From contig NZ_JWLL01000005.1 in the NCBI RefSeq assembly GCF_000814025.1, forward strand, positions 558,001 through 622,000: a DNA stretch of 64,000 nt. Direction: 5' to 3'. The number at the start of each line of letters is the position of its first letter. Position 1 is the stretch's first letter. Of the stretch, positions 8,596 through 49,840 are shown piece after piece. Below the pieces are notes generated by a model. It saw only the letters and a program-made list of their open reading frames with translations. It did not search any database and was not told the DNA's origin. Source of the DNA: Tateyamaria sp. ANG-S1 (GTDB lineage: Bacteria; Pseudomonadota; Alphaproteobacteria; Rhodobacterales; Rhodobacteraceae). A program made the translations under genes and the position numbers.

Positions 8596-8693
8596 ACGCC
8601 ACTTTGTTTACCTAAACACCGGTTCGAGTGAACCAAACGCCGCCGTCCTTCGTAATGTTGGTATTCTTGCCGCTGCGTGAGGGGTTTGCTGCT

Positions 8694-9047: not shown

Positions 9048-9050
9048 GCG

Positions 9051-9242
9051 CTAGAAGTCGACCGCGATCCCTTTTTTCTCCCAATCGCCGAAGCGCACGG
9101 GTTCAGGTCCGTCGCGGCCCCCCAGTTCTGTCGGCAGCTCCAGGGCCTTGGCCGCCTTGCGCCGTTCCTCGGCCTCGGCCAGTGCGCGCTGGGCGGCGGG
9201 GGGCAGGTCCTTGGGCTGTTCGGGCTGCTGATCGTCGGACAT
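9051..9242 (-). CDS. DUF1674 / SDHAF4-like succinate dehydrogenase assembly factor
   Basis: A 63-residue protein with the C-terminal signature GGRDGPEPVRFGDWEKKGIAVDF (residues 41-63). This matches the conserved tail of SDHAF4/DUF1674 proteins, which in eukaryotes protect flavinylated SdhA before it joins complex II. The N-terminal half is Ala/Glu-rich and probably helical. The same role in this bacterium is inferred from the family. It is convergent with the small secreted-protein gene, whose stop lies 3 nt away. Confidence 0.85.
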   Translation of the reverse strand: MSDDQQPEQPKDLPPAAQRALAEAEERRKAAKALELPTELGGRDGPEPVRFGDWEKKGIAVDF

Positions 9243-9328
9243 CGTGGGTTCCTCTTGGCGATGTCCCTTGATATACGCGCGGCCTTGGCCCCGGCAAGCG
9301 GGTGCGACAGGAACGACCGGGACGAGAC

Positions 9329-10600
9329 ATGAGCGATACGGGACTGCCCGCGCGGCGCAGCGCGATCTACCTGCTGGATCAGATCATTGGCGAGGGCAAG
9401 TTGCTCCCTGAGTTGATCGGTGCGGGGGCGCTGGACCGGTTGGAGCCTGCGGATCGCGCCCGTGCACAAAGGCTGGCGACCGAGACTTTGCGCGGGATGG
9501 AGCGGGCCGACCGTATTTTGCAGAAGCATTTGCAGAAGTACCCGCCGCTGACTGTGCGCAATGCGTTGCGTGTCGGTACGGTGGAGCTGTGTGCTGGGGA
9601 AGCGGCGCATGGGGTCGTGAATTCGATGGTGAACATCGTGTCGCGGCACAAGCGCTACGGGCATTTGAAGGGCCTGACCAATGCCGTGTTGCGCAAGGTG
9701 GCGGACAAAGGGCCGGAGCAGTGGCCCGCTTTGCGAACGCCGCGGTTGCCCAAGTGGCTGCGCGGGCCTTTGGTGGATGCCTGGGGCGGTGAGGCTGTGC
9801 TGGCGATGGAGGCCGCGCAGTTTGCAGGCGCACCGCTGGATTTGAGTTGTAAGTCGAGTGCGGAAGATGTGGCTGCGGCCACCGGGGGTGAGGTTTTGCC
9901 AACTGGGTCCGTGCGTTTGGCCGATGCCGGGCAAGTGTCGGCATTGCCGGGCTACACCGCCGGTGACTGGTGGGTTCAGGATGCCGCAGCCGCGATGCCA
10001 GCGCGCGTGTTGGATGCGCAACCTGGTGAGGCGGTGCTGGACCTGTGCGCTGCCCCCGGTGGCAAGACGCTGCAATTGGCGGCGACCGGGGCGGATGTGA
10101 CTGCCGTTGATGTTTCCGAAGGGCGGATGGAGCGGGTGAAGCAGAACCTGATCCGCACCAAGTTGGAGGCCACGACGCTGGTGTCGGACGCCTTTGAGGT
10201 CACTGGGCAATATGATGCGATCCTGCTAGATGCGCCCTGTTCCGCGACGGGGACGATCCGGCGGCACCCGGATCTGCCCTTTGCCAAGGATGGGTCGGAA
10301 TTTGGTGGTCTGATCGAGTTGCAGGCCCGGATGATTGATCACGCCGTGACGCTGTTGAAACCGGGCGGGCGGATGGTGTTTTGCACCTGTTCGCTGTTGC
10401 CGGATGAGGGTGAGGTGCAGGCCGAAGAGGCGCTTGAGCGGCACACGTTGCTCACCGTGGATCGTGCGGCGCTCGACCGGCCCGGCATTGATCCTGCCTG
10501 GATCACCGAAGAGGGCGGGTTGCGCCTGCGGCCCGATCATTGGGCGGACAAGGGTGGCATGGACGGCTTCTATGTCATTTGCCTGCGCAAGCCGGGCTGA
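9329..10600 (+). CDS. RsmB/NOP-family rRNA (cytosine-C5) methyltransferase
   Basis: A 423-residue protein. The N-terminal NusB-like RNA-binding region (about 1-140) is followed by a SAM-dependent methyltransferase domain with DLCAAPGGKTLQLA near residue 237. Two catalytic cysteines of m5C methyltransferases are visible: PC in DAPCSATGTIRRHPD (near 302) and TC in VFCTCSLLPDEGE (near 352). This architecture matches RsmB, which methylates C967 of 16S rRNA. The ATG at 9329 is preferred to the GTG at 9302 because GGGACGAG precedes it. Confidence 0.9.
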   Translation: MSDTGLPARRSAIYLLDQIIGEGKLLPELIGAGALDRLEPADRARAQRLATETLRGMERADRILQKHLQKYPPLTVRNALRVGTVELCAGEAAHGVVNSMVNIVSRHKRYGHLKGLTNAVLRKVADKGPEQWPALRTPRLPKWLRGPLVDAWGGEAVLAMEAAQFAGAPLDLSCKSSAEDVAAATGGEVLPTGSVRLADAGQVSALPGYTAGDWWVQDAAAAMPARVLDAQPGEAVLDLCAAPGGKTLQLAATGADVTAVDVSEGRMERVKQNLIRTKLEATTLVSDAFEVTGQYDAILLDAPCSATGTIRRHPDLPFAKDGSEFGGLIELQARMIDHAVTLLKPGGRMVFCTCSLLPDEGEVQAEEALERHTLLTVDRAALDRPGIDPAWITEEGGLRLRPDHWADKGGMDGFYVICLRKPG

Positions 10601-36775: not shown

Positions 36776-37141
36776 TCAGCCGGTCGAGAGCAGACGTGAC
36801 GCGGTCGCTTCGTTCACGGCCAAAAGGGTGTCGTAGAGGATCGCGAGCCGCAGGAGTGACTTTACATCGACGTCGTGCGGCAAGGCCGACAGCGGGTCGA
36901 TGAAGAAGATCAGGGCGTCGAGTTTGCCTTCGGCAATCATTGCGCCGATCTGGGCATCGCCGCCATGGGGGCCGCTTTTCAGCCTCTGAACGTGCAGCCT
37001 GGTTTCATCGTTGATGCGCCCGCCTGTCGTGCCCGTCGCGTAGAGGGTGCTTTGGGCAAGCGTCCCTTCGTGCGCTTTGACCCAGGAGATCATCTGATCC
37101 TTCTTTTGATCATGCGCCACCAGCGCAATTGACTTGATCAT
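36776..37141 (-). CDS. mgsA: Methylglyoxal synthase
   Basis: A 121-residue MgsA, which converts DHAP to methylglyoxal and phosphate. It is shorter than the E. coli protein (152 residues) but contains the core: [12 protein letters not shown] (6-17), TGTTGGRI (37-44), [12 protein letters not shown] with catalytic Asp62, and [19 protein letters not shown] with His89. It lies directly downstream of the gntR/tct genes on the same strand. The OtnC enzyme encoded nearby releases DHAP, its substrate, so it may act as an overflow valve for this pathway. Confidence 0.92.
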
Positions 37142-37160: not shown

Positions 37161-38075
37161 CTATTCATCCCGTTTGCCTGCATCCGCGGCCCAGGTCCAT
37201 GTTAATGGCGACTTGCGTTTCAATGCGCCGCTGAGATGCTTGCGCATCTTGTGCGAGGCATCGAGGTTGTCACCCGCTTCGAGCATGTCGAGGATTTCCA
37301 GATGTTCGGTACATTGTTCGACGAGCCGCTCGTGATTCACTTCGGCGCGGTACTCCATCAGCCGTCGCATCCGGTTGACTCGCTGAAGCGCCATGAAGAA
37401 GAACAGGTTGCCTGATAGCTTGATCAGTTCCTCGTGGAAGGTTGAGCCATTTGCGAGGAGCGACTCCGCCGGAACCGAACTGAAGTCCATGTCCAGCATG
37501 CTTTCCTGAATGCGTCGCTGTTCGGACAGGATGGTGCGATCCAGTTCAAAGGATGGCTCAAGCATGGCGGCGGGCTCAATCGCCATTCTGAACCGGTAGA
37601 TTTCGTCAAAGGCCTCGGGCGTGTTGGCGACCGGAAGGAACCGCCATCCGTATCCCTCCTTGCGCTCGATCCAGCCTTCGCGCGCGGCGCGCACAAGGAC
37701 TTCGTTCATGCGCGCCTTGGTCCAGCCGTAGCGTTGGCGCAGGAAGTGTTCCGTGACCTCTTCGGGCAGACGATTGACCAGCCAGTCTTCGGCCAGCCTG
37801 TGATATTCGTCATCCTCGGAATTGGTTGGCGCGTCGAGCGCTTCGGTCATTGCGTCGGCATCCGGCTCGGCCACGAAGAACCCGCGATTTTCCTGCCGGA
37901 TCAGGAAGCCGCCGCTTTCAAGCAGGTTCATGGCTTCGCGCACGGGGGTGCGGGATACGCCATAGCGATCCGCAAGCTGCTGCGCGCCCAGATGCTGTCC
38001 GGCAGAGATGCCGCCGGACGCTATGTCCTGAAGCAGACGTTTCGAAATCCGTTGTGCAAGATCGCTTGTGCGCAT
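37161..38075 (-). CDS. GntR/FadR-type transcriptional regulator with two winged helices
   Basis: A 304-residue regulator. Residues 6-70 form the usual GntR winged helix (LGAQQLADRYGVSRTPVREAMNLLESGGFL). Residues about 105-147 (EVTEHFLRQRYGWTKARMNEVLVRAAREGWIERKEGYGWRF) look like a second winged helix. Residues 155-290 form an FCD-type ligand domain (EIYRFRMAIEPAAML, FHEELIKLSGN, HLEILDMLEAGD). It lies downstream of tctCBA on the same strand and probably controls the tct genes and the divergent operon. The start is the ATG at 38075, after GAGGAAAGG; a TTG at 38129 is in frame. Confidence 0.88.
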   Translation of the reverse strand: MRTSDLAQRISKRLLQDIASGGISAGQHLGAQQLADRYGVSRTPVREAMNLLESGGFLIRQENRGFFVAEPDADAMTEALDAPTNSEDDEYHRLAEDWLVNRLPEEVTEHFLRQRYGWTKARMNEVLVRAAREGWIERKEGYGWRFLPVANTPEAFDEIYRFRMAIEPAAMLEPSFELDRTILSEQRRIQESMLDMDFSSVPAESLLANGSTFHEELIKLSGNLFFFMALQRVNRMRRLMEYRAEVNHERLVEQCTEHLEILDMLEAGDNLDASHKMRKHLSGALKRKSPLTWTWAADAGKRDE

Positions 38076-38200
38076 GGCTGGGCTGGCCCTTTCCTCAACA
38101 TGCGGGACGTGGACGACCCGTTTCGCCAAGATTGCACGGGGAATGCAAAATGGTAAGGATATTCGCGCATTTTGATACCATCAGGTGCAATCAGCCGGCC

Positions 38201-39730
38201 TCAGCCTTGCATGGCGCTTTGACGCTTCCGGCTTCTGTTGATCAGGTTGAGGGCAATCGGCACTAGGATGACTGCCACCAGAATGATCGACAGAACAAGT
38301 GATACGGGGCGTTCCCAGAAGAGGCTCATGGTACCCTGCGAAATGATGTAGGTTTGCAGGAAGGTTTCTTCTGCCATCGACCCGAGCACCAGTGCCAGTA
38401 CGGTGGCCGCGGGCGAGTAGCCGTATTTCTTCATGGCAAAGCCGATCAGTCCGCTGCCAACAAGGATCCAGGTTTCCACAATGCTTGCGTTGATGGCAAA
38501 GGCCCCGATCACGCAGAGCAGAACGATCACCGGGACGACATTAACGTAGGGAATGTCGAGGAATTTTACGAAGAGCGGGATGGCGAAGATGCTCATCGCG
38601 ATCAGGATCATGTTGCCAAGATACATGCTGGCAATGAGGCCCCAGACGAATTCGGGGTCGTTGACGATCAACAGCGGGCCGGGTTGCAGGCCCCACATCA
38701 GGAAGGCGCCGAGCAGCACGGCCGTCGCGCCTGAACCGGGGATGCCAAGTGACAAAAGTGGCACCATTGCCCCGGCAGAGGCCGCGTTATTGGCGGCTTC
38801 CGGGGCGACCAGCCCGCGCATTTCGCCCTTGCCAAACTTTTCAGGGTCTTTGGCCACCTTCTTTTCCACCGAATAGCCGATGATCGACCCGAGCGTGGCG
38901 CCCGAGCCGGGCAGGACCCCGGCGATGAAGCCGATCACGGAGCCGCGCCAGAAGGTCCAGCGGGATTCGTGGTAGTCCGTTTTCGAGGGCCAGAACTCCT
39001 TGTCCCGGAAGCTTACCCGCAAACGCTTGGCCGGCTCACGGTGCTGCCCGTTGAAGATGCAGTGCAGGAGTTCGCCGATGCCGAACAGGCCAATGGCCAC
39101 AGCCACGAAATAGACCCCGCCGATCAGTTCGGGCGAGCCGAAGGTGTAGCGTTGCTGACCGCTCATCACGTCGACGCCGACGGTTCCGATGGCAAAGCCG
39201 ATCAGGGCCGAGATGAACCCCTTGAACTTGTTGTCGCCCATCATCGTGGTCAGCATCAGCAGGCCGACGGCGATGATCAGGAAGTATTCGGACGGGCCGA
39301 AGGAGGCGGCGAAGTTGGCCAGTGACGGGGCGAGGGCGGTGATGAGGATCACGCCGACCGTTCCGCCGAAGAAGGAGGCGATTGCCTGCATGACCAGCGC
39401 CGGGCCTGCGCGCCCCTTTTGCGCCAGTGGGTAGCCGTCGATGGTTGACGCCACGGTTGCCGATTCACCCGGCGTGTTGATCAGGATCGACGTGATCGTG
39501 CCGCCATACATCGACCCGTAGTAGATGCCCGCCAGCATGATGATCGCGATGGTCGGGGTCAGGCCAAAGGTCATGGGGATCAGCACGGCGATCCCGGCGG
39601 CGGGGCCGAAGCCCGGGAAGAGCCCGACGATCATGCCCAGAAAGGCACCAATCACCAGAAACAGGAACCCTTCGGGCGATCCGGCCACGCTAAGGCCAAG
39701 CGAGAGGTTGGAGACGATTTCAGCGAACAT
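38201..39730 (-). CDS. tctA: Tripartite tricarboxylate transporter, large permease TctA
   Basis: A 509-residue membrane protein with about twelve helices, and the TctA motifs GLFPGFGPAAGIAVLIPMTFG, GTITSILINTPGESATVASTIDGYPLAQKGRAGPALVM and GVLPGSGATLGSIIGY. It transports a di/tricarboxylate-like compound by cation symport together with TctB and TctC. It is 33 bp after tctB. Confidence 0.95.
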   Translation of the reverse strand: MFAEIVSNLSLGLSVAGSPEGFLFLVIGAFLGMIVGLFPGFGPAAGIAVLIPMTFGLTPTIAIIMLAGIYYGSMYGGTITSILINTPGESATVASTIDGYPLAQKGRAGPALVMQAIASFFGGTVGVILITALAPSLANFAASFGPSEYFLIIAVGLLMLTTMMGDNKFKGFISALIGFAIGTVGVDVMSGQQRYTFGSPELIGGVYFVAVAIGLFGIGELLHCIFNGQHREPAKRLRVSFRDKEFWPSKTDYHESRWTFWRGSVIGFIAGVLPGSGATLGSIIGYSVEKKVAKDPEKFGKGEMRGLVAPEAANNAASAGAMVPLLSLGIPGSGATAVLLGAFLMWGLQPGPLLIVNDPEFVWGLIASMYLGNMILIAMSIFAIPLFVKFLDIPYVNVVPVIVLLCVIGAFAINASIVETWILVGSGLIGFAMKKYGYSPAATVLALVLGSMAEETFLQTYIISQGTMSLFWERPVSLVLSIILVAVILVPIALNLINRSRKRQSAMQG

Positions 39731-39763: not shown

Positions 39764-40291
39764 TCAGAAACCAAAAGGGGATGTGGGGAGCGAGGCGTTC
39801 AGCAGGATCTTGAACAGGCCGTAGAGAAAACCCGGCAAGGCAAGACTGTAGATCACGTTGCTGACGGGATGCGCGCGATTGAAGGTGAAGAGGAAGGCGA
39901 GCATGAACATCACCATGGCGATGAGCGCGCCGACGATCTTCATGATGGCGACGAAGGCGCAGATGTAGGCGAAGACGATAAAGACGTCGCGCCCGAATTC
40001 GGGACCGCCGTCGATGGCATGCGCATCAACACCAAATGTATCGGCCTTGGCCTCTGCTTCGGGGTCGGCCAGATGGCGTGGCGCTACACCGTTTTGTCGC
40101 GCTGCCCGCCATTCCCGCACATCGCCCCACAGATTGACCGCGGTCGACAGGATCAGCAGCACACCGATCACCAGCGGAAAGAACCCCGCAGCCGGTCGAC
40201 CCGAAGACGTCACAAGCGTCAGCGTGGTGAGGCCGTAGATTGTATATCCAATCGCAAGCACCAGAAGTGCTGCGGCAAACCATTTTTTCAT
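39764..40291 (-). CDS. tctB: Tripartite tricarboxylate transporter, small permease TctB
   Basis: A 175-residue protein with four hydrophobic helices and the RPAAGFFPLVIGVLLIL segment typical of TctB. The start at 40291 has a strong Shine-Dalgarno (GGAGGGGGAGG). It forms the membrane part with TctA. A cytoplasmic loop (about 60-100) is charged and variable. Confidence 0.9.
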   Translation of the reverse strand: MKKWFAAALLVLAIGYTIYGLTTLTLVTSSGRPAAGFFPLVIGVLLILSTAVNLWGDVREWRAARQNGVAPRHLADPEAEAKADTFGVDAHAIDGGPEFGRDVFIVFAYICAFVAIMKIVGALIAMVMFMLAFLFTFNRAHPVSNVIYSLALPGFLYGLFKILLNASLPTSPFGF

Positions 40292-40359
40292 CGGACCTCC
40301 CCCTCCGATCTGCCAGACAGCCATGGGCGCAGAGCACGCCCATGGCAGCTTTGGTTTCA

Positions 40360-41328
40360 CTATTCCTGGATTGCGCCGATCTCGACGAGTGTTGCGCGGT
40401 ACTGTGCGCTTGTCTCTTCAAGGTAGGCTGCGAATTCGTCACCCCAGATCGGGTTGCCCGACATGCCGTTGGTTGACAGGTATTCCTGCCATTCGGGCGT
40501 TTCGATCACTTTCTGGAGTGTCGCAACCCACCAGTCCTGGACCTCTGCATCCACACCGCCGGGCATGACGACACCGCGGGGCAGCGAAAAGCTGAAGTCA
40601 TAGCCGAGTTCCATGAAGGTCGGCACATCGGGGTTGTTTGTGCTGCGTTCCGTGTCGGAGAAGGCAAGCGCCGTCAGGGTGCCCGCCTCAAGCTGGCCAG
40701 AGACTTCGGATGGGTTCGCCACGACAGCATCGACGCTGCCGGAGGTCAGAGCCGTGACGAGTTCACCGCCCGAGCCAATGGGCACGTATTCGAATTCGAT
40801 CTCTGCGGATTGGGCAAAGAGTTCAGCCGTGACCCGCTCTGGCCCGGCAGAGCCGCTGCCTGCGATGGTCACGCGACCAGCATTTGCCGCTGCGACAAAG
40901 GCATCCACGCTGTCAAAGTCGGAATCGCTGCGCACGACCAGAAGCATCGCGTCACTGGCCAGTAGGCCCACAGGCGTGAAATCCGCATAGGTCCAGTCGG
41001 TGTCTGCCACCAGCGGTGTGCCGATGAAATTGCCGCTGGTCGAGGTCAGGCGCTGACCGTCTCCGGCTTGCCGCGCCACATAGCTGAAGCCGACGGCACC
41101 GCTGCCGCCTTCGCGGTTTTCGACCACGATGTCACCTTCATAGAGGTCATAGGACCGCAGAATATCGACGACTGTGCGCGACATCCGGTCATTTCCGCCG
41201 CCGGGGCCGAAGGCAATCGTATAGGTCAGCCGATCCGACCCATAGCTTCCAGCCATCGCCGGAAGCGATAGGGCGGCGGCCGTCAGGCTGACCGCTGCTC
41301 CTGCAACAAGGGTGCGCCGTTTGATCAT
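40360..41328 (-). CDS. tctC: Tripartite tricarboxylate transporter, periplasmic binding protein TctC
   Basis: A 322-residue Bug-family receptor with a signal peptide (MIKRRTLVAGAAVSLTAAAL, cleaved near AMA). Segments YTIAFGPGGGNDRMSRTVVD and VVENREGGSGAVGFSYVAR match the carboxylate-binding fold of TctC/Bug proteins. It is first in the minus-strand tctCBA operon; the start follows AAAGGGAGG. The ligand is unknown; context suggests a four-carbon hydroxy acid or dicarboxylate. Confidence 0.92.
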   Translation of the reverse strand: MIKRRTLVAGAAVSLTAAALSLPAMAGSYGSDRLTYTIAFGPGGGNDRMSRTVVDILRSYDLYEGDIVVENREGGSGAVGFSYVARQAGDGQRLTSTSGNFIGTPLVADTDWTYADFTPVGLLASDAMLLVVRSDSDFDSVDAFVAAANAGRVTIAGSGSAGPERVTAELFAQSAEIEFEYVPIGSGGELVTALTSGSVDAVVANPSEVSGQLEAGTLTALAFSDTERSTNNPDVPTFMELGYDFSFSLPRGVVMPGGVDAEVQDWWVATLQKVIETPEWQEYLSTNGMSGNPIWGDEFAAYLEETSAQYRATLVEIGAIQE

Positions 41329-41603
41329 GGTTTCCTCCCTTTGATCATTTTGCATTTTTAAACGCCTTTGTGCAGTAGGCGGATGAATTGCATCATGTCA
41401 AGTTAAAAAGCAAAGTATTGTTCTGCGTATTATTGCGCATCAGTGCTCGTATTGCCCCGCGTATACGCAGTCTTGCTTAGATTCCATTCAATGAATGGTG
41501 TCTGGCTTCGTCGCGCTGCATTTGATTGCGGGTTGCATTTTGCTTTTTATAATTTTAAAGAGCAAAAATACACACAAGACGAACCGATGGGAGGAAGTGT
41601 TCA
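41329..41603. promoter_or_regulatory. AT-rich divergent control region between tctC and the acid-sugar operon
   Basis: This 275-bp gap is more AT-rich than its neighbours and should hold promoters for both operons. It contains a GCGTATACGC palindrome (41459-41468), an inverted repeat CTGCGTAT/ATACGCAG (41423-41430 and 41463-41470), and TTTTGCT/AGCAAAA arms 16 nt apart (41538-41544 and 41561-41567) just before the plus-strand gene. CATTTTGCA at 41346-41354 is the reverse complement of TGCAAAATG at 38144-38152 upstream of gntR, a candidate GntR recognition element. Confidence 0.6.
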
Positions 41604-42689
41604 ATGAAGCTGATGGTGCTGCCCTGTGATGGCATCGGGCCGGAAATCATGTCCGCAACGCTGGATGTGGTGGCTGCGGCCAGTGCGCGTTTCGATCTTG
41701 GTCTTACCTTCCATGAAGAGGTTTCAGGCTTCGACAGTCTGAAGTCCCATGGAATCACCTTGCGGGAAGAGGTGCTCGACCGGGCGCGGACGGAATTTGA
41801 CGGTGTCATTCTCGGCACGCAGTCGCATATGGACTATCCCCCGGTGGCCGAAGGCGGGCGCAATGTGTCAGCGGGCTTTCGCATTGGTCTTGACCTCTAT
41901 GCCAATGTCCGCCCGGCGCGCAGCCGCGACTTTCTGATCAACAAGGCGCCGGGCATGGATCTTGTGATCATGCGTGAGGCGACCGAAGGCTTTTATCCCG
42001 ACCGCAACATGTTCAAGGGCGTGGGTGAGATGATGCCTGACCCGGACATGGCACTGTCTGTCCGCAAGATCACGCGCCACGGGTCCATGCGGATATGCCG
42101 CGAGGCCTTCAAGCTTGCCATGCAGCGGGACAAGAAGGTCGCGGCGATCCACAAGGCCAACTCTTTCCTGATGACCGACGGTTTGTTTCTTGAATGCTTC
42201 CGCACGGTCGCCAAGGACTTTCCCGAGGTTGAGACCGAAGAGTTGATTGTTGACGCCTTTGCCGCGCTGCTCGTCCGGCAGCCCGAAAAATACGATGTGG
42301 TGGTTGCGACGAACTTCTACGGCGACATCCTGTCTGATCTGGCGTCGGAGTTGTCCGGATCGCTTGGTCTGGCGGGGTCCATCAATGCGAATGCGGAAAC
42401 GGGTCTGTGCTGTGCGCAGGCGCAACACGGGTCGGCCCCCGACATCGCTGGCCAGAATGTGGCCAATCCGACATCGCTGATCCTGTCGGCAGCCATGATG
42501 CTGACTTGGTTGGGGGAACAGCGCGGTGTTGCGCCGTTGATGGATGCCGGTGCAGCGATTACGGATGCCGTTGACGCGGTTATTGACGATCCGGCCAAGC
42601 GCACCCGTGACCTTGGTGGATCAGTGAACACAGACACTTTCGGTCGTTTTGTGGCAGATGCGGTGGCGGCACAGGCTGTCGCTGCCTGA
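41604..42689 (+). CDS. Isocitrate/isopropylmalate dehydrogenase family oxidoreductase
   Basis: A 361-residue beta-decarboxylating dehydrogenase. It has the N-terminal PCDGIGPEI, the substrate-binding block YANVRPARS, REATEGFYPDRN, the Lys/Tyr region AAIHKANSFLMTDGLF, the metal-binding TNFYGDILSDLASEL and the NAD-binding AQAQHGSAPDIAGQNVANPTSLILSAAMML. Relatives include IPMDH, homoisocitrate and tartrate/malate dehydrogenases. Beside OtnK/OtnC it most likely oxidises a hydroxy acid to a 3-oxo acid. It is first in the operon, with GGGAGG upstream. Confidence 0.88.
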   Translation: MKLMVLPCDGIGPEIMSATLDVVAAASARFDLGLTFHEEVSGFDSLKSHGITLREEVLDRARTEFDGVILGTQSHMDYPPVAEGGRNVSAGFRIGLDLYANVRPARSRDFLINKAPGMDLVIMREATEGFYPDRNMFKGVGEMMPDPDMALSVRKITRHGSMRICREAFKLAMQRDKKVAAIHKANSFLMTDGLFLECFRTVAKDFPEVETEELIVDAFAALLVRQPEKYDVVVATNFYGDILSDLASELSGSLGLAGSINANAETGLCCAQAQHGSAPDIAGQNVANPTSLILSAAMMLTWLGEQRGVAPLMDAGAAITDAVDAVIDDPAKRTRDLGGSVNTDTFGRFVADAVAAQAVAA

Positions 42690-42778
42690 TCTCCCAATCG
42701 CGAGCGTTCGGTTCGCGACAACGGTGGCGCTGCCCCCTCCCTCGCAGCGCCACCATCCCTCCTTCAAAGGATACGGTG

Positions 42779-43453
42779 ATGCCAAGGATTGCCCTTGTCC
42801 ACGCAACCAGACTTGCAATCTACCCGATAGAGAAGGCTGCACGCCGCCATTGGCCCGAGGCCGAGATGATCTCGATCCTTGATGAAGCGTTGTCGATCGA
42901 TCGGCGGGCGTCGCATGACATGCCGGAGAGCCTGCGCGCGCGCATTGTTGCTTTGGCGACATATGCGGAAACCACCGGGGCTGAGGGCGTGCTTTTCACA
43001 TGTTCGGCCTTTGGCGGTGCGATTGAGGAGGCGGATCGCCAAAGTGTTCTGCCGATCATGAAACCGAATGAGGCGATGTTCGACGCCGCTTTGGCCTGTG
43101 GTGATAGGGTTGCAATGATCTACACCTTTCCTCCGGCCGCCGGGGGTATGGAAGAAGAGTTCCGACAGGCTGCGTTGGCTGGCGGGCACAACGCTCGGCT
43201 GTCCTCTTACTTTTGCGAGGATGCGCTGGAGGCGAAACAGGCGGGCCATCATGCTGAGCATGATCGTCTGATCGCGCGGACCGCGCAGCAGATCGAGGAT
43301 GCGGATGTGATCATGCTGGCGCAGTTTTCCATGGCGGATGCCGCAGAGGAGGTGCGCAAGCACTGCGCGGTCCCTGTGCTTTCAAGTCCGGACGCAGCCG
43401 TGACCGAGATGCGCCGCCGGGTCGAGGCGCAGGCGAGGGTGGTCGCATGTTGA
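42779..43453 (+). CDS. Asp/Glu/hydantoin racemase superfamily protein with one catalytic cysteine
   Basis: A 224-residue protein of the Asp/Glu racemase fold. The first catalytic cysteine is in GVLFTCSAFGGAI. The second position, usually GCT in the C-terminal half, reads VIMLAQFSMADAA with no cysteine. It is therefore unlikely to be a two-base racemase and may be an isomerase or decarboxylase. The ATG at 42779 follows AAAGGAT. It overlaps otnK by 7 nt. Confidence 0.82.
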   Translation: MPRIALVHATRLAIYPIEKAARRHWPEAEMISILDEALSIDRRASHDMPESLRARIVALATYAETTGAEGVLFTCSAFGGAIEEADRQSVLPIMKPNEAMFDAALACGDRVAMIYTFPPAAGGMEEEFRQAALAGGHNARLSSYFCEDALEAKQAGHHAEHDRLIARTAQQIEDADVIMLAQFSMADAAEEVRKHCAVPVLSSPDAAVTEMRRRVEAQARVVAC

Positions 43454-44727
43454 TCGGTGTCATCGCGGACGACTTCACCGGCGCAAGCGATATTGCCAAC
43501 ACGCTGGCCAAGGGGGTTGCCCCCGAGGGTGGTTTGCGCACCGCGCAGTTTGCGGGCGTTCCCGCCGGACCTGCGCCTGACGACATTGACGCGGGCGTTG
43601 TATCCCTGAAAAGCCGCACCGCCCCAGTGGCAGATGCCGTGCGTGACAGCCTGGAGGCGCTCGCGTGGCTTTGTGCGCAGGGGTGCCAGCAGATTGTTTT
43701 CAAGTATTGCTCGACCTTCGATTCCACGAAGGAGGGCAATATCGGTCCGGTCGCGGCAGCGCTTGCCGATGCGCTGGGTGCGGATAAGGTTGTGTTCTGC
43801 CCGGCCTTTCCCACGACTGGGCGCACGGTCTACCAGGGGCACCTGTTTGTTGCAGACACGCTGTTGAGTGCGTCCGGGATGGAGAACCATCCGCTCACCC
43901 CAATGTCCGATCCGGACATCCGGCGCTGGTTGTCTCATCAGACGACAGAAGCTGTCGGTCACCTGCCTTACACAGATGTCGTGCGTGGGTGCGGGGCGAT
44001 TGAGCAATCCTTGCGATCAGCCAAGGATCGCTTTGTCGTGGCTGATGCTGTGACGGATGCCGACCTGCTTGAACTTGGTCAGGCGCTGGCTGATGCTGTC
44101 CTGATCACGGGTGGTTCTGGCATTGCGCTTGGCCTGCCGGGGAACCTGATCCGTGCGGGTGCTGCGGCCGGTCGTTCCCCTCTTGCGATGGAGCTGGCGG
44201 GGGCCGAGGCAATCATGGCCGGGTCGTGTTCCGGCGCGACGCTGGGCCAGATCGACGTGCACGCAGCGAACCACCCAACTCTGCCTATTGATGTGCCCGG
44301 TGTCATGCAGGGCCATGTCACGCTCGATCATCTTCTTGAATTCTATGCAGCCAATGTTGGTTATGCCCCGCTGGCCTACTCCTCTGGCACACCGGAAGAG
44401 GTGAAGGATGTGCAACGCCGCTTTGGAAAGGATGCGGTTGCCGAAAAGCTCGATGCGCTTTTTGCAGACACAGCGGTGGCGCTGGTTGAGCGCGGCTGGC
44501 GACGGATCGTCGTGGCGGGCGGTGAAACCTCGGGCGCAGTGGCGCAGGCGGTTTCGAATGCGTTTGCCGCACCCGCGATGGCAATCGGTCCAGAGATTGA
44601 TCCGGGCGTCCCTGTCCTGACCCTGACGGGGCAAGAGACAGTCGCGCTTGCCCTCAAGTCGGGCAATTTCGGTGCCCCCGACTTCTTTACCAAGGCGTTG
44701 CAGGTGATGGCGGAGGGACGCGCGTGA
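43447..44727 (+). CDS. otnK: 3-oxo-tetronate 4-kinase (DUF1537/OtnK family)
   Basis: A 426-residue kinase of the four-carbon acid sugar family. The N-terminal DDFTGASDIANTLAKG (9-24) and the C-terminal nucleotide domain (VAGGETSGAVAQAV, PVLTLTGQETVALALKSGNFG) are characteristic. The family phosphorylates 3-oxo-tetronates (or threonate/erythronate-type acids) at C4 with ATP. Immediate linkage to OtnC, by a 4-nt overlap, supports 3-oxo-tetronate as substrate. Confidence 0.92.
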   Translation: MLIGVIADDFTGASDIANTLAKGVAPEGGLRTAQFAGVPAGPAPDDIDAGVVSLKSRTAPVADAVRDSLEALAWLCAQGCQQIVFKYCSTFDSTKEGNIGPVAAALADALGADKVVFCPAFPTTGRTVYQGHLFVADTLLSASGMENHPLTPMSDPDIRRWLSHQTTEAVGHLPYTDVVRGCGAIEQSLRSAKDRFVVADAVTDADLLELGQALADAVLITGGSGIALGLPGNLIRAGAAAGRSPLAMELAGAEAIMAGSCSGATLGQIDVHAANHPTLPIDVPGVMQGHVTLDHLLEFYAANVGYAPLAYSSGTPEEVKDVQRRFGKDAVAEKLDALFADTAVALVERGWRRIVVAGGETSGAVAQAVSNAFAAPAMAIGPEIDPGVPVLTLTGQETVALALKSGNFGAPDFFTKALQVMAEGRA

Positions 44728-45365
44728 GTTCGGAAGAAGGCGATCTGCGGAAGCAGATGGCAAAGCTGTGCCGTTCACTTTTTGAGCGCGGTTTTTCTGT
44801 TGGTACCGCGGGCAATGTGTCGGCACGGCTGTCTGACGGCATTCTGATGACGCCCACCAACGCCACCCTGGGTGACATCGACCCAGACCGGATTGCCAAG
44901 ATCACGCTGGATGGCCGCCACATCGCCGGGGACAATCCCACGAAAGAGGTCTTTCTGCATCAGGCGTTCTACGAAACGCGCCTGGATGCCGGTGCCGTAG
45001 TTCATCTGCATTCCACATGGGCCACGGCCTTGTCCTGTCTGAAGGATATCAACCCCCTGGACTGCGTGCCGCCCCTGACGCCTTATGTGGTGATGCGTGT
45101 CGGGCCGGTGGGCCTTGTTCCTTATGTCAAACCGGGCGACCCTCGGGCCGGAGATCTTATCCGGGCGTTGGAGGGCCGGTATGCCGCCGTTTTGCTGGCC
45201 AATCATGGGCCGGTTGTGTCTGGCAAGACCTTGTTCTCTGCTGTTTGCGCGGCGGAAGAGCTGGAAGAAACGGCAAAGCTGCTTGTCGCGCTGCACGCCT
45301 TGCCAACCCGCTATTTGACGGCGGCGCAGGTGGATGAGTTGAACACCACATTCGGAAGGATTTGA
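44724..45365 (+). CDS. otnC: 3-oxo-tetronate 4-phosphate decarboxylase (class II aldolase fold)
   Basis: A 213-residue class II aldolase/adducin-type enzyme. Its metal site is expected from the HLHSTWATALS histidines and the NHGPVVSG histidine; the N-terminal GTAGNVSARL loop is also conserved. It decarboxylates 3-oxo-tetronate 4-phosphate to DHAP. It starts with GTG overlapping otnK by 4 nt (GTGA). Confidence 0.9.
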   Translation: MSSEEGDLRKQMAKLCRSLFERGFSVGTAGNVSARLSDGILMTPTNATLGDIDPDRIAKITLDGRHIAGDNPTKEVFLHQAFYETRLDAGAVVHLHSTWATALSCLKDINPLDCVPPLTPYVVMRVGPVGLVPYVKPGDPRAGDLIRALEGRYAAVLLANHGPVVSGKTLFSAVCAAEELEETAKLLVALHALPTRYLTAAQVDELNTTFGRI

Positions 45366-45368
45366 GAC

Positions 45369-45842
45369 ATGAAGACCGCCGACCTGATAGACGCGCACGC
45401 CGACAAACTGCGGCTTCTCCACCTGCCGTTTCGAGCCTTCGGGCAGAAGGCGCATTTCGCGGGGCAGGCTCAAACCGTTAAGTGTTTTGAGGACAACACG
45501 CTGATCCGTGCGCAACTTGAGCAGCCCGGTGACGGGCGTGTTCTGGTTGTCGATGCGGCGGGTTCGACGCGGGTTGCGGTGATGGGGGACATCTTGGCTG
45601 ACCTCGCCATCGTGAACAACTGGGCAGGTGTTGTTCTTGCCGGTGCGATCCGTGACAGCGTCGAAATCAACCGGATGGGCACGCTTGTGCTGGCCTTGGG
45701 CACGTCGCCCGTCAAAAGCGCAAAGGACGGGTTGGGCAAGGTGGGCGGGACGATCACCATGGGCGGCGCGGCAGTTGCGCCCGGCGATTGGATATACGCC
45801 GATGCCGATGGGGTGCTGGTCAGCGACCGCAAGCTGGTCTGA
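45369..45842 (+). CDS. RraA-like protein (HMG aldolase/regulator fold)
   Basis: A 157-residue protein of the RraA fold (GSTRVAVMGDILADLAIVNNWAGVVLAGAIRDSVEI). Family members are either inhibitors of RNase E or metal-dependent aldolases/oxaloacetate decarboxylases acting on oxo acids. Here it is the last gene of a catabolic operon, so an enzyme role on a pathway intermediate is more likely than RNase regulation. It starts 3 nt after otnC. Confidence 0.85.
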   Translation: MKTADLIDAHADKLRLLHLPFRAFGQKAHFAGQAQTVKCFEDNTLIRAQLEQPGDGRVLVVDAAGSTRVAVMGDILADLAIVNNWAGVVLAGAIRDSVEINRMGTLVLALGTSPVKSAKDGLGKVGGTITMGGAAVAPGDWIYADADGVLVSDRKLV

Positions 45843-46097
45843 ACCCGAAGTCGACGCCTGACATGCTAGAAGTACCGGGCGCGATGTGACTGCAAGACAT
45901 CCATGCGGAGCGGTTGCGCGCGCGTTTTCGGCGAAAACGTCGCTGCATATTACCGGCGCACTGGCCCTCTGACCGGGGGCAAGACTGTGTGACAAAACGC
46001 GCATGTGCACCCTGTCGCACCCCCGCTGATCTGCCAGGACCGCCGTCTATATCAGGCTCAAGACGATAGGAGTAACCGTTCCGAGCGGAGGTCTTTT

Positions 46098-47486
46098 ATG
46101 GACACCCTGATGCTGTCCCGTATTCAATTTGGGGCAAATATCTCGTTTCACATCCTGTTCCCAACGATCACCATCGCGTTGGGCTGGGTCCTTTTGTTTT
46201 TCAAGCTGCGCTACAACGCCACCGGTAATGTCCGCTGGATGGAGGCCTATCGCTTCTGGGTGAAGGTGTTTGCGCTGTCCTTTGCCATGGGCGTCGTGTC
46301 GGGAATCACCATGTCGTTCCAGTTCGGAACCAACTGGCCCGGTTTCATGGAAACGGTCGGCAACATCGCCGGGCCACTCTTGGCCTATGAGGTGATGACC
46401 GCCTTTTTCCTCGAAGCGGTGTTCCTTGGCATCATGCTGTTCGGCTTCTCGCGTGTGCCGGGATGGTTGCACACCTTGGCCACGTTCCTCGTGGCCTTTG
46501 GTACGACCATGTCGGCCTTCTGGATCCTCGTGCTGAACAGCTGGATGCACACGCCCCAGGGCTTCGAGATGCGCGATGGCGTGGCCTATGCCACCAACTG
46601 GTTCGAGATCATCTTTAACCCCTCGATGCCCTATCGCCTGATCCACATGCTGCTGGCCTCTGGCCTGACTGTGGCGTTCCTGATTGCCGGTCTCAGCGCG
46701 TTCCGCTGGTTGCTGGGTGATCGCAGCAACAGCGTGCGGGTGACACTGAAAACCGGTGTCTTCATGGGCGCTCTGCTGATCCCTATGCAAATCTTTATGG
46801 GCGACATGCACGGCCTGAACACGCTGGAGTATCAGCCGCAGAAGGTGGCGGCGATGGAGGGCAATTGGGAAACCCAGTCGAATGTGCCGCTCCTTCTATT
46901 TGCAATCCCCGATGAAGAGGCGCGCGAGAACCGGATGGAGGTTGGTATTCCCAACATGGCCTCCATCATCCTCAAGCACAAAGCGGATGGCGTGGTGCCC
47001 GGTCTGAATGACTTTGTGGCCGAAGACGGCACCGTGATGCACCCGCCGGTCGCACCTGTGTTCTGGTCGTTCCGGATTATGGTGGGCACGGGCTTTGCCA
47101 TGTTGCTGCTGAGCTGGGCGGCGTCCTATCTGATGCTGCGTAGGAAGCGCGGGCCCGAGGGCGTGCCGAAGATGATGATGTTTGCGATGGTGCCCATGGC
47201 GTTCTCTGGCTGGGTGGCCACGCTGGCCGGTTGGTACACGACCGAGATCGGGCGTCAGCCATGGTTGGTGCAGGGTGTGTTGACCACTGAAACGGCCGTG
47301 GCGGATGTGCCTGCGCCGTTCGTCGGCACCACGCTGGCTGCCTATCTGGCGATCTACGCGCTGTTGCTTGCGGCTTACATCGGCGTGTTGTTTTTCCTTG
47401 CCCGCAAGGCCGTGGATGGTGATCTGCCACGTCCGCGCACGCCCCTGTCGGGGCAAGCCATTGCCCGTGAAATACCTGCGGAGTGA
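46098..47486 (+). CDS. cydA: Cytochrome bd-type quinol oxidase subunit I
   Basis: A 462-residue membrane subunit with nine or so helices. The Q-loop has the quinol-binding KVAAMEGNWET, and the conserved GRQPW motif is in GWYTTEIGRQPWLVQGVL. The Q-loop lacks the long insert of E. coli CydA, as in the cyanide-insensitive (CIO) subclass. The start at 46098 follows CGGAGG. It oxidises quinol and reduces O2 with high affinity. Confidence 0.94.
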   Translation: MDTLMLSRIQFGANISFHILFPTITIALGWVLLFFKLRYNATGNVRWMEAYRFWVKVFALSFAMGVVSGITMSFQFGTNWPGFMETVGNIAGPLLAYEVMTAFFLEAVFLGIMLFGFSRVPGWLHTLATFLVAFGTTMSAFWILVLNSWMHTPQGFEMRDGVAYATNWFEIIFNPSMPYRLIHMLLASGLTVAFLIAGLSAFRWLLGDRSNSVRVTLKTGVFMGALLIPMQIFMGDMHGLNTLEYQPQKVAAMEGNWETQSNVPLLLFAIPDEEARENRMEVGIPNMASIILKHKADGVVPGLNDFVAEDGTVMHPPVAPVFWSFRIMVGTGFAMLLLSWAASYLMLRRKRGPEGVPKMMMFAMVPMAFSGWVATLAGWYTTEIGRQPWLVQGVLTTETAVADVPAPFVGTTLAAYLAIYALLLAAYIGVLFFLARKAVDGDLPRPRTPLSGQAIAREIPAE

Positions 47487-47491
47487 CGTGA

Positions 47492-48502
47492 ATGAACCTG
47501 TTTGGCGATCCAACCGTTTGGCTGCCCTTCACCTTCGCCGCCCTGATGGGTGTGTCCATCCTTGTTTACGTCGTCCTTGACGGGTTCGATCTGGGCGTCG
47601 GGGTCTTGTTCCCCTTCGCCACGGACGCGGAAAAGGATATCATGGTGGCGTCCATCGGCCCCTTCTGGGACGCGAATGAAACGTGGTTGGTGCTGGCCAT
47701 CGGCCTTCTGCTGGTGGCCTTTCCGACAGCACACGGGACCATCCTGACGGCGCTTTACCTGCCGGTGGCGATCATGTTGATTGGGCTGATCTTGCGCGGC
47801 GTCGCCTTTGAGTTCCGGGTCAAGGCGCCCACGCCGCACAAAGCCACGTGGAACTGGCTGTTCTTTGCAGGCTCGTTGATGACGTCGTTGGCCCAGGGTT
47901 TTATGCTGGGCAAATACGTCATGGGACTGGAAGGCACCTTGGGCACCTGGGCCTTTGCCGCGATCACGGCCGTGTTCCTGACGGTCGCCTATTCCATGAT
48001 CGGCGCGTGCTGGTTGATCCTGAAGACGGAAACGGAGCTTCAGGCCAAGGCCGTCACCTGGGCGAAGGGCGGCATCTGGGGTCTGATCCTTGGTCTGGGT
48101 GCGGTGTCGCTCGCCACGCCGCTTGTCAGCCCGCGCATTTTCGACAAGTGGTTTTCGGCGCCCGAGATATTCCTGCTGGCCCCGCTTCCCATCCTGTCGG
48201 CTGTGATGGTCCTGCTGTTGTGGCGGTCGCTGCAACGCCTGCCCAACGTAACGGACAAGGGGTCACGCGCGCCGTTCACCTATGCTATCTTGCTCTACAT
48301 CCTGGCCTTCTGCGGGTTGGCGTATTCTTTCTATCCCTATGTCGTTCCAGAGCAGCTGACGATCTACGAAGCGGCAAGTGCGCCCGAAAGCCTGATGATC
48401 ATTCTGGTCGGAGCCATTTTCGTTATTCCGATGATCGGGGGTTATACGGCTCTCGCCTATTGGGTTTTCAAGGGTAAGGCGGCAGAGCTGCGCTACGACT
48501 AG
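47492..48502 (+). CDS. cydB: Cytochrome bd-type quinol oxidase subunit II
   Basis: A 336-residue membrane subunit with about eight helices, containing LDGFDLGVGVLFPF and the WDANETWLVLAIGLLLVAFPTAHGTIL block typical of CydB. It follows cydA by 5 nt. The stop TAG is immediately before the dispersed repeat at 48505. Confidence 0.94.
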   Translation: MNLFGDPTVWLPFTFAALMGVSILVYVVLDGFDLGVGVLFPFATDAEKDIMVASIGPFWDANETWLVLAIGLLLVAFPTAHGTILTALYLPVAIMLIGLILRGVAFEFRVKAPTPHKATWNWLFFAGSLMTSLAQGFMLGKYVMGLEGTLGTWAFAAITAVFLTVAYSMIGACWLILKTETELQAKAVTWAKGGIWGLILGLGAVSLATPLVSPRIFDKWFSAPEIFLLAPLPILSAVMVLLLWRSLQRLPNVTDKGSRAPFTYAILLYILAFCGLAYSFYPYVVPEQLTIYEAASAPESLMIILVGAIFVIPMIGGYTALAYWVFKGKAAELRYD

Positions 48503-48504
48503 TC

Positions 48505-48564
48505 TTTCTTCTGGCTGAAAATACTTCGGGGGTGAGCGCGTAAGCGCGAGGGGGCTGGCCCCCT
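48505..48564 (+). repeat. Dispersed 3'-end repeat A, copy 2, with terminator hairpin
   Basis: TTTCTTCTGGCTGAAAATAC (48505-48524; one base different from the other copies) starts 3 nt after the cydB stop. It is followed by TTCGGGGGTGAGCGCG and a stem AGGGGGC/GCCCCCT (48549-48555 with 48558-48564) and TTTATCC. The arrangement fits an operon-end terminator. Confidence 0.8.
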
Positions 48565-48631
48565 TTATCCCCGCTTTCCCTTGGCGCGCAGGCTGTTATT
48601 CTGCGCTGCGGAATGCAAGGGAACCGACAAC

Positions 48632-49840
48632 ATGTATGATTTCGCCGCCATGGGCGCGTGGCTGGAATTCGCGGTGCGCTGGCTGCATGTGATCACGGCC
48701 ATCGCCTGGATCGGCTCGTCGTTCTACTTCATCGCGCTTGATTTGGGCCTGCACCGCGACCGCAACCTGAAGAGCGGCGCGGATGGTGAGGAGTGGCAGG
48801 TGCATGGCGGCGGCTTTTACCATATACAGAAGTATCTCGTGGCACCTGCGGGCATGCCGGATGGGCTGATCTGGCACAAATGGCAGAGCTATTGGACGTG
48901 GATCAGTGGGTTCATCCTGTTGGTGCTGGTCTATTATCTGGGGGCGGAGTTTTACCTGATTGATCCCAATGTGATGGACCTTGCCACCTGGCAGGCCGTG
49001 GGGATCTCGCTGGCCTCGCTGGCGCTGGGCTGGGTCATCTACAACACGCTGTGCAAGCTGTTTGTGAACGCGGACCAGACGGTGTTGATGGTGGCGCTCT
49101 TCGCGGTGCTCATCGCGATGTCATGGTTCTACGCGCAGGTGTTCACGGGTCGTGCGGCACTGCTGCACTTGGGTGCGTTTACCGCCACCATCATGTCGGG
49201 CAACGTCTTCTTCATCATCATCCCGAACCAGAAGATTGTGGTCGCCGACCTGATGGCCGGCCGCACGCCCGATGCGATCTACGGCAAGATCGCCAAGCAG
49301 CGGTCGACGCACAATAACTACCTGACCTTGCCCGTCATCTTCCTGATGCTCAGCAACCACTACCCGCTGGCCTTTGCCAGCGAATGGAACTGGGTGATCG
49401 CCAGCCTTGTCTTCCTGATGGGCGTCACAATCCGGCACTGGTTCAACACGCATCACGCGCGCAAAGGCAACCCGCACTGGACATGGGGTGTGACGGTGAT
49501 CCTGTTCATTCTGATTGCCTGGCTGTCCGTCGCCCCATCCGACCAGCGTGAAGCTGCGGTCGTCACGCGCTTTGCGGAGGCCGAAGGGTTCACCCACGTC
49601 CACGACATCGTTCTGGGCCGTTGTTCCATGTGCCATGCGGCCGAACCTGTCTGGCCCGGCCTGCACTGGGCACCCAAAGGGGTTGCACTGGAAACGGAGG
49701 CAGATCTCACCCGGCATGCCCGTGCTGTCTATCTGCAATCCGGCGTGTCTCATGCCATGCCACCGGCCAACCTCAGCTACATGGAAGAGGATGAGCGCGC
49801 GGCCATTGTCGCCTGGTACAAGGCGGCGACGAACCGGTAA
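48632..49840 (+). CDS. puuD: Membrane urate hydroxylase (oxidase) PuuD with cytochrome c domain
   Basis: A 402-residue protein with eight or so hydrophobic helices (for example WLEFAVRWLHVITAIAWIGSSFYFIALDLGL, the family-specific start) and a C-terminal c-type cytochrome with the heme motif CSMCH in LGRCSMCHAAEP (near 331-335). PuuD oxidises urate to 5-hydroxyisourate in the inner membrane, passing electrons to the respiratory chain. It should feed uraH and puuE-uraD, which lie 17 kb upstream. It lies next to cydAB. The start follows AAGGGA. Confidence 0.93.
   Translation: MYDFAAMGAWLEFAVRWLHVITAIAWIGSSFYFIALDLGLHRDRNLKSGADGEEWQVHGGGFYHIQKYLVAPAGMPDGLIWHKWQSYWTWISGFILLVLVYYLGAEFYLIDPNVMDLATWQAVGISLASLALGWVIYNTLCKLFVNADQTVLMVALFAVLIAMSWFYAQVFTGRAALLHLGAFTATIMSGNVFFIIIPNQKIVVADLMAGRTPDAIYGKIAKQRSTHNNYLTLPVIFLMLSNHYPLAFASEWNWVIASLVFLMGVTIRHWFNTHHARKGNPHWTWGVTVILFILIAWLSVAPSDQREAAVVTRFAEAEGFTHVHDIVLGRCSMCHAAEPVWPGLHWAPKGVALETEADLTRHARAVYLQSGVSHAMPPANLSYMEEDERAAIVAWYKAATNR

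Follow-up and report, generated by a model that had tools for sequence, protein, structure and literature searches.

In the acid-sugar pathways that employ OtnK and OtnC, the kinase OtnK makes a 4-phosphate and OtnC decarboxylates 3-oxo-tetronate 4-phosphate to dihydroxyacetone phosphate (DHAP), while D-threonate is degraded through the pair DtnK-PdxA2. Two routes with OtnK and OtnC are outlined in the relevant sections of PMC12540250: the four-step L-threonate pathway LtnD-OtnI-3-OtnK-3-OtnC (Zhang et al., 2016) and a three-step, OtnI-free pathway of Arthrobacter which uses LtnD, a 2-oxo-specific OtnK and an OtnC of the F_bP_aldolase type (Guo et al., 2024). The locus described here lies in a 64,000-nucleotide stretch of the genome of Tateyamaria sp. 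ANG-S1 (contig NZ_JWLL01000005.1, positions 558,001 to 622,000), hereafter the window, and comprises a five-gene operon at window positions 41604-45842 with a transporter unit in the opposite direction. Judged by its sequence, this operon is a conserved variant of the OtnK/OtnC acid-sugar pathways, in which two unusual enzymes take the place of the textbook ones: a dehydrogenase resembling isopropylmalate dehydrogenase (IPMDH-like) and a racemase-fold protein (RACE).

A conserved operon built around OtnK and OtnC

The five enzyme genes are all encoded on the forward strand, divergently from the tripartite tricarboxylate transporter (TctCBA), a GntR regulator and a methylglyoxal synthase. RACE and otnK overlap slightly, as do otnK and otnC, and the widest gap between the five genes is 86 bases. 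The gene content and order given in an earlier note on this DNA were recovered in full, with all five open reading frames (ORFs) in their places:

41604..42689, forward: IPMDH-like dehydrogenase of the isocitrate/isopropylmalate family, 361 aa (PF00180, 258.9 bits)
42776..43453, forward: RACE, a protein of the Asp/Glu racemase fold whose one Cys at a catalytic position is C76, with Gln183 at the partner position (PF01177, 55.7 bits)
43447..44727, forward: OtnK, 3-oxo-tetronate kinase (NF043035, 501.1 bits, cut-off 350; PF07005 and PF17042)
44724..45365, forward: OtnC (NF043034, 295.5 bits, cut-off 250; PF00596, Aldolase_II, as its only Pfam match)
45369..45842, forward: RraA-like protein of the short RraA/HMG-aldolase family (TIGR01935, 179.5 bits, cut-off 123.8; PF03737)

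An identification of the kinase as D-threonate kinase was rejected, the DtnK model giving 107.4 bits against a cut-off of 450 and the OtnK model 501.1.

The gene set recurs well beyond this genome. A scan of the genome collection returned 336 relatives of the dehydrogenase, and the best 80 of the 336 were kept as loci (designated by L numbers), 53 of them with a dehydrogenase at least 80% identical to that of the window and 27 at 60-80% identity. In the group of 53 are found RACE in 52 loci, TctA in 51, TctC in 50, OtnK and GntR in 45 each, OtnC in 38, RraA in 30, an aconitase-like gene in 21 and methylglyoxal synthase in 18, with LtnD in none and an OtnI-type (OtnI/TIM) protein in one or two. 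The 37 loci of this group that have full flanks include 32 with OtnK and 27 with OtnC. At 60-80% identity the corresponding numbers are 20 (RACE), 18 (OtnK) and 14 (OtnC) of 27, so that RACE is present in 72 of the 80 kept loci and otnK stands beside the dehydrogenase in 63. Ten genomes, picked by eye from the remaining 17 loci, all match OtnK elsewhere, over the cut-off in nine and as a partial match of 337.6 bits in one. The search for the same set in other genomes that the earlier note had proposed therefore succeeds, with recurrence in tens of genomes (RACE 52/53, OtnK 45/53).

The association also stands out from the general frequency of OtnK, which occurs in 45 of 367 genomes of a class sample and in 81 of 398 of a phylum sample. 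In the latter, 20 of the 398 genomes have a RACE relative at an E value of 1e-30 or better, and OtnK is present in all 20 as opposed to 61 of the 378 others (Fisher 1.9e-15); counted by genus, the figures are 12/12 and 43/201 (Fisher 3.3e-8). These counts and Fisher values are uncorrected for kinship among genomes, and the RACE and OtnK searches of 398 genomes, equal in size and in genome handles, are taken as one draw. Leaving out the own genome, 19 RACE-positive genomes remain. RACE and otnK adjoin in three of them and are separated by 13-23 kb in seven; in three they share a contig at a distance of megabases, and in six they lie on separate contigs. Those phylum-sample matches of RACE that are near 40% identical, nine of them from one genus, are mostly found in other gene contexts, with otnK at a distance of 13-23 kb or more. 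In an order sample, RACE matches at 1e-10 occur in 12 of 292 genomes, seven of which (own genome excluded) are at 55-64% identity. The recurrence in tens of genomes, together with the co-occurrence of RACE and OtnK, rules out chance clustering: the operon is real and conserved. The counts in the 53 loci, the ten distant OtnK genes found in ten genomes, and the 20/20 against 61/378 bear out the claim that the dehydrogenase and RACE belong with OtnK and OtnC.

The window-type operon is nonetheless a minority variant among otnK loci. In the 45 otnK neighbourhoods of the class sample (about 6 kb on each side, some contigs being short), RACE was found in one and the window dehydrogenase clade in none, while LtnD-type and OtnI-type proteins adjoin otnK in 12 and 15, respectively. 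On annotated plasmids of Agrobacterium, Shinella, Rhizobium and Pantoea the dehydrogenase is associated with OtnK. The Cupriavidus locus L027 has the dehydrogenase and RACE 15 kb apart, without an otnK listed within 18 kb; for the Paraburkholderia locus L028, otnK is listed and otnC is not. A second arrangement was noticed in L105, L114 and L118, in which a dehydrogenase of the same type accompanies amidohydrolase, cupin, ABM-domain and succinate-semialdehyde-dehydrogenase-type genes; the two arrangements occur together in L118, where each includes a separate copy of the dehydrogenase.

The genome of Tateyamaria sp. ANG-S1 contains OtnK twice. The second copy (572.7 bits), on contig C32, belongs to what is by its predicted products a canonical LtnD-OtnK-OtnC-OtnI-type operon, with LtnD at 415.2 bits (cut-off 350), OtnC and an OtnI-type protein of 232.7 bits, under its cut-off of 325. 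A further OtnI/Hyi-type gene lies on contig C28 (256.2 bits). The statement in the earlier note that neither LtnD nor OtnI is present consequently holds for the locus, where neither was found among the proteins scanned with Pfam and NCBIfam, but fails for the genome. Given the canonical operon on C32, the window operon would be an additional route. Upstream of the C32 operon are a LacI-type regulator, a sugar-type ATP-binding cassette (ABC) transporter and SMP-30-type genes, named by reading of the sequence.

The IPMDH-like dehydrogenase and a proposed route to DHAP

The dehydrogenase falls under the cut-off of every NCBIfam family that it matches, among them LeuB (TIGR00169, 208.9 against 353.2) and tartrate dehydrogenase (TIGR02089, 219 against 470.4), and it also stays below that of isocitrate dehydrogenase PRK08997 (256.1 against 510). 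Among solved structures, its best sequence match is an isocitrate dehydrogenase. Its membership of the beta-decarboxylating dehydrogenase superfamily (PF00180) is clear from the residues, which are conserved in 88/88 sequences of its clade at each position: R93, R103, R124, Y131, K184, D217, D241 and D245. These are the positions of the superfamily catalytic set (three Arg, Tyr, Lys and three Asp). The 88 sequences comprise neither the paralogue of the same genome nor the plasmid relatives L031-L033 (50-58% identity), in which all eight residues are kept too. In the side-chain loop, compared with the organism's own LeuB, the clade has R86 (84/88), N87 (88/88), S89 (87/88) and A90 (83/88); S187 occupies the place of a LeuB Val in 79/88, and R134 and N135 are invariant. 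Such a pocket would be polar and cationic, which would suit a side chain bearing hydroxyl or carboxyl groups and would set it apart from the isopropyl pocket of LeuB. Two identities were discarded: a degraded LeuB, on the TIGR00169 score and on R86, S89, A90 and S187 in place of hydrophobic residues, and tartrate dehydrogenase, on the TIGR02089 score and the pocket. Four PF00180 proteins are encoded in the genome at an E value of 1e-3 or better, including the likely LeuB (C28:14794, 442.3 bits to PF00180) and a paralogue on contig C27, beside genes resembling those for Gfo/Idh/MocA and tripartite ATP-independent periplasmic (TRAP) transport proteins.

A second PF00180 clade, 31-35% identical to the window enzyme, adjoins otnK in four of the 45 class-sample loci, being adjacent and on the same strand in three:

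Second PF00180 clade beside otnK: L135, 8893-10041; L137, 5093-6193; L155, 4897-5997; L156, 7165-8268

Since both clades are found with otnK, PF00180 enzymes have joined OtnK at least twice. The second clade and the C27 paralogue have Phe at the position of Tyr131. That paralogue lies near L011 6506-7762, and no otnK was seen beside it.

The simplest match to OtnK and OtnC would be a dehydrogenase that oxidises C3 of a C4 tetronate to 3-oxo-tetronate without decarboxylation, replacing LtnD and OtnI at once and leaving the remaining steps to OtnK and OtnC. The earlier note had proposed direct C3 oxidation, and it has a parallel in PdxA2, a fold relative that oxidises C3 of a phosphorylated acid. 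The second clade, with Phe for the catalytic Tyr and with both otnK and otnC adjoining in L137, fits this chemistry well. In the window clade, on the contrary, the decarboxylating Tyr and Lys are kept in 88/88 sequences, a beta-keto acid in such a site would tend to lose CO2, and a canonical tetronate operon is already available on C32. Direct C3 oxidation thus gains support in principle from the distant second clade (beside otnK in 4/45) and loses ground for the window clade, in which Tyr131 is kept in 88/88; as the explanation of this operon it seems unlikely, if by no means negligible. Because the catalytic decarboxylating residues are conserved throughout, oxidative decarboxylation of a C5 hydroxy-diacid is favoured over plain C3 oxidation of a tetronate, a tentative preference held at somewhat less than even confidence.

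In the scheme that is favoured here, TctCBA would import a hydroxy-acid and the operon would catabolise it. The IPMDH-like enzyme, assumed to use NAD+, would oxidise the hydroxyl beta to a carboxylate and then release that carboxylate, converting HOOC-CHOH-CHOH-R into HOCH2-CO-R, the new end group being the target for phosphorylation by OtnK. For a pentarate (R = CHOH-COOH), as an example of a C5 diacid, the product of this one step would be 3-oxo-tetronate, which OtnK would turn into 3-oxo-tetronate 4-phosphate and the Aldolase_II-type OtnC into DHAP, with methylglyoxal synthase as an overflow; RACE would act on the keto-acid, either as a decarboxylase or as a tautomerase/epimerase with one Cys. 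A precedent within the superfamily is tartrate dehydrogenase, whose substrate is a C4 diacid. A longer R, cut by a FucA-type aldolase, would likewise lead to DHAP. This could account for L155, where the second clade has as neighbours OtnK (567.6), a FucA-like aldolase (PRK08087 212.3, under its cut-off of 264; OtnC 72.7), a 96-aa protein without a name and a methylglyoxal synthase (175.7), if that clade decarboxylates as well, a condition against which its Phe would speak. The gene set, its conservation, its tie to OtnK and the retained catalytic residues are established by the analysis, and the reactions of OtnK and OtnC are those of their families; we infer the substrate, the dehydrogenase product and the role of RACE from residues, chemistry and gene context. 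A route through 3-oxo-tetronate 4-phosphate to DHAP is quite probable, and the dehydrogenase probably feeds OtnK without OtnI; a pentarate in particular is a rather doubtful substrate. The most general form of the idea, a logic of decarboxylating C5 sugar diacids and then phosphorylating the new CH2OH, with a new PF00180 clade, RACE as a keto-acid tautomerase, epimerase or decarboxylase, a re-specialised aconitase and a parallel second PF00180 clade ahead of OtnK, is unlikely to hold as a whole.

DHAP as the end product, which the earlier note had also put forward, agrees with the neighbours. The substrate of methylglyoxal synthase is DHAP, so its place at the locus fits a route ending there. 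The enzyme occurs in 18 of the 53 loci, tpiA adjoins otnC in L026, and pyk and tpiA are found in L097 and L100. Carriers of classes named for di- or tricarboxylates, namely TctCBA-type transporters, SLC13 and DctA, are present at several loci.

Several observations weigh against the decarboxylating scheme. Known members of the family usually oxidise a carbon to which a carboxylate is directly attached, which would not be so in a pentarate, and RACE would be left without a required step if the dehydrogenase already yielded 3-oxo-tetronate. Some loci have carriers of iron-type ABC (L024, L026, L030), major facilitator superfamily (L025, L028) and TRAP (L068) types, which say little of a diacid. 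Dehydrogenases at 47-59% identity are not bound to OtnK (three of seven genomes), and related dehydrogenases, also that of L094 at 68%, can stand with tricarballylate (TcuA/TcuB) or PrpF-type genes, hinting at tricarboxylates. Finally, the aconitase-like gene of 21/53 loci has no step in the proposed scheme.

This gene is also present in the plasmid loci L024, L025 and L030. Compared with the housekeeping aconitase of the window genome, 32 full-length sequences from the dehydrogenase neighbourhoods share Q121>H, F123>T and G125>C in at least 95% of cases, and thus the motif HDTTC in place of QDFTG (L024 18345-21005, L068 11133-13778 and 30 other sequences). The altered Gln is the one that contacts the substrate in pig aconitase, and the changed motif may possibly confer a new substrate specificity. 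Aconitase-like proteins of the Pseudomonas type share this motif and are 42-44% identical to that of L024, no closer than the housekeeping enzyme (45%). Of the other 19 loci that share the window type of transporter (TctA at least 83% identical; a few flanks are short), none shows the gene; 20 of the loci that have it possess the other type of tripartite tricarboxylate transporter, the exception being L113, which has the gene with a TctA at 75%. A trans-aconitate methyltransferase-like gene (tam) was noticed near the IPMDH-like operon in the rhizobial loci L026 (5072-5842) and L107; it fits an aconitate-like intermediate or by-product.

From these data a citrate-type pathway can be drawn, in which an aconitase-like hydro-lyase would make an isocitrate analogue, the IPMDH-like enzyme decarboxylate it, RraA cleave the product, and OtnK and OtnC take one fragment. 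The frequency and motif shift of the aconitase-like gene, the relatives beside TcuA/TcuB or PrpF, the isocitrate dehydrogenase as best solved relative, and L068, where the dehydrogenase and the aconitase-like gene are paired with no RACE or otnK beside them, all speak for it. What makes it improbable is the chemistry: no route could be drawn from a known tricarboxylate to 3-oxo-tetronate, and on paper neither hydroxycitrate, itatartarate nor the other tricarboxylates considered as joining aconitase, dehydrogenase and OtnK gave this compound. Moreover, a single strong aconitase match (45%), regarded as the housekeeping enzyme, and a weak one (28%) are all that the window genome offers, and the 19 other loci with the window transporter type are without the gene, though L113 has it. 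A tricarboxylate entry point in some hosts may be envisaged.

At 60-80% identity the loci include amidohydrolase-type genes (9/27) and beta-propeller lactonase-type genes (13/27), resembling the ascorbate pathway of C. necator, in which a PdxA-family enzyme reportedly decarboxylates 2-carboxy-L-lyxonate. Branched C5 diacids would be a corresponding substrate: 2-carboxy-tetronate would give 3-oxo-tetronate, or 2-hydroxymethyl-tartrate would give 2-oxo-tetronate, which RACE would move to the 3-oxo form. The parts of PMC11066805 concerned describe 2-carboxy-pentonate and its lactones as arising from ascorbate. The reviewed ascorbate-derived compounds are C6, one carbon too long, and no gene of lactonase type turned up next to the window operon, which makes branched diacids very improbable substrates.

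RACE and the divergent transporter unit

The alignment of RACE comprises 95 sequences, the window protein included, all matching above 100 bits. Cys76, at the N-terminal catalytic position, is kept in 95/95, 68 sequences have Gln and 27 have His at the second catalytic position, and Phe184 and Ser185 are invariant. The description of RACE in the earlier note as single-Cys is thus right as to the catalytic positions; the window protein as a whole has five cysteines. An amino-acid racemase of the two-Cys Asp/Glu type was discarded, since only C76 of the catalytic pair is present and its partner is Gln or His. Nor does RACE follow the G74/C188 pattern of arylmalonate decarboxylase, to judge from the motifs given in PMC4996985: it has Cys at the 74-type position and Gln or His at the 188-type position. 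The AlphaFold model (pLDDT 95.9, pTM 0.91) matches glutamate, aspartate, hydantoin and allantoin racemases, arylmalonate decarboxylase and maleate isomerase with Z scores of 15.6-20.4 among the matches listed, values so similar that the model does not choose among the functions of the racemase superfamily; by sequence, RACE gave no match to solved structures at 0.01. With its single catalytic Cys, RACE would more readily be a one-base tautomerase/epimerase or a decarboxylase than a racemase working with two bases.

RACE accompanies otnK or otnC also at loci with another oxidising enzyme. In L034, L035 and the sample locus L168, RACE and otnK/otnC are found with a flavin mononucleotide-dependent alpha-hydroxy-acid oxidase as the oxidising enzyme, and in L036 an oxidoreductase with SAF/DRL domains (8556-9995) lies between the tripartite tricarboxylate transporter and RACE-otnK-otnC. 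A solute-binding-type protein is also near RACE and otnK/otnC in L034 (SBP_bac_11), L035 and L168, and otnK of L034 is annotated only as a fragment. The proposal that RACE replaces OtnI agrees with the lack of LtnD and OtnI in nearly all loci and is weakened by L029 and L034, which also carry an OtnI/Hyi-type (hydroxypyruvate-isomerase-type) protein; weaker OtnI-type matches are found in L081, L117 and L167. RACE therefore belongs to the OtnK pathway, with the replacement of OtnI as just one reading of its role.

The divergent unit and the intergenic element are as follows:

36776..37141, reverse: methylglyoxal synthase (PRK05234, 177.1 bits, cut-off 84; TIGR00160, 155.1 bits, cut-off 146.9)
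37161..38129, reverse: GntR/FCD-type regulator (PF00392 in two stretches, and PF07729)
38201..39730, reverse: TctA of the tripartite tricarboxylate transporter (PF01970)
39764..40360, reverse: TctB (PF07331)
40360..41355, reverse: TctC, the solute-binding protein (PF03401)
41389..41412, no strand assigned: conserved element TGCA-N3-TGTCAA-N4-AAA-N-GCA in the divergent intergenic region

The element is found once per locus in 13 of the 20 loci with the same divergent transporter, in none of the 33 with the other transporter type, and four times in 2,530,593 bases of other loci; its pattern was read off these same loci, so that the counts describe conservation and are no independent test. Seven same-transporter loci are without it; in five of these (L054, L066, L067, L079 and L083) a GntR gene separates the two units, and in L039 and L069 it does not. 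The element is likely a promoter or operator, as predicted from its position and conservation, and the GntR/FCD-type regulator probably governs both divergent units. A simple palindrome was rejected as a shared operator, being present in only two of 54 upstream regions. Directly downstream of the operon, at 46005-49840, are ORFs which on reading of the sequence resemble subunits of a cytochrome bd-type oxidase and a urate-hydroxylase-like membrane protein that ends in a cytochrome c. Transfer RNA and Rfam scans of the window gave no matches.

Comparison with known systems

The gene set is not described among the matches listed in the open-access full-text literature, which was the scope of the search. 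A rhizobial selection study mentions "four-carbon acid sugar kinase" variants and names no such gene set in the parts that deal with them (PMC12904279). OtnK-type kinases are common (81/398 in the phylum sample) and LtnD-type and OtnI-type genes stand beside them in a minority of the class-sample loci; the operon links two enzyme families to OtnK. If the proposal is correct, marine Rhodobacteraceae and plant-associated Proteobacteria would gain functions for proteins whose only annotation is now "isocitrate/isopropylmalate dehydrogenase family", "aspartate/glutamate racemase family" or "arylsulfatase", and an unrecognised acid, derived from plants or algae to judge from the habitats of the hosts, would enter the picture of bacterial carbon cycling.

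With the D-threonate pathway DtnK-PdxA2 the window operon has in common an IPMDH-fold dehydrogenase and a DUF1537 kinase; it differs in that the kinase is of the OtnK type (501.1; DtnK 107.4 against 450) and the dehydrogenase belongs to PF00180 instead of PdxA. Tartrate dehydrogenase (TIGR02089) is of the same superfamily and acts on a hydroxylated diacid, while the window enzyme scores 219 against 470.4. The fold and the single catalytic Cys of RACE are those of arylmalonate decarboxylase, although by the motifs in PMC4996985 the Cys is at the position of Gly74 and Gln or His at that of Cys188. As for the pathways covered in the relevant sections of PMC12540250, the three-step route of Arthrobacter likewise does without OtnI, but it keeps LtnD and has an F_bP_aldolase-type OtnC, whereas the window OtnC is of the Aldolase_II type, with PF00596 as its sole Pfam match. 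Compared with the four-step L-threonate pathway, the window locus is without LtnD and OtnI and has instead the IPMDH-like enzyme, RACE, the tripartite tricarboxylate transporter and the GntR regulator; what both share is OtnK and an Aldolase_II-type OtnC and, hence, the predicted conversion of 3-oxo-tetronate 4-phosphate to DHAP.

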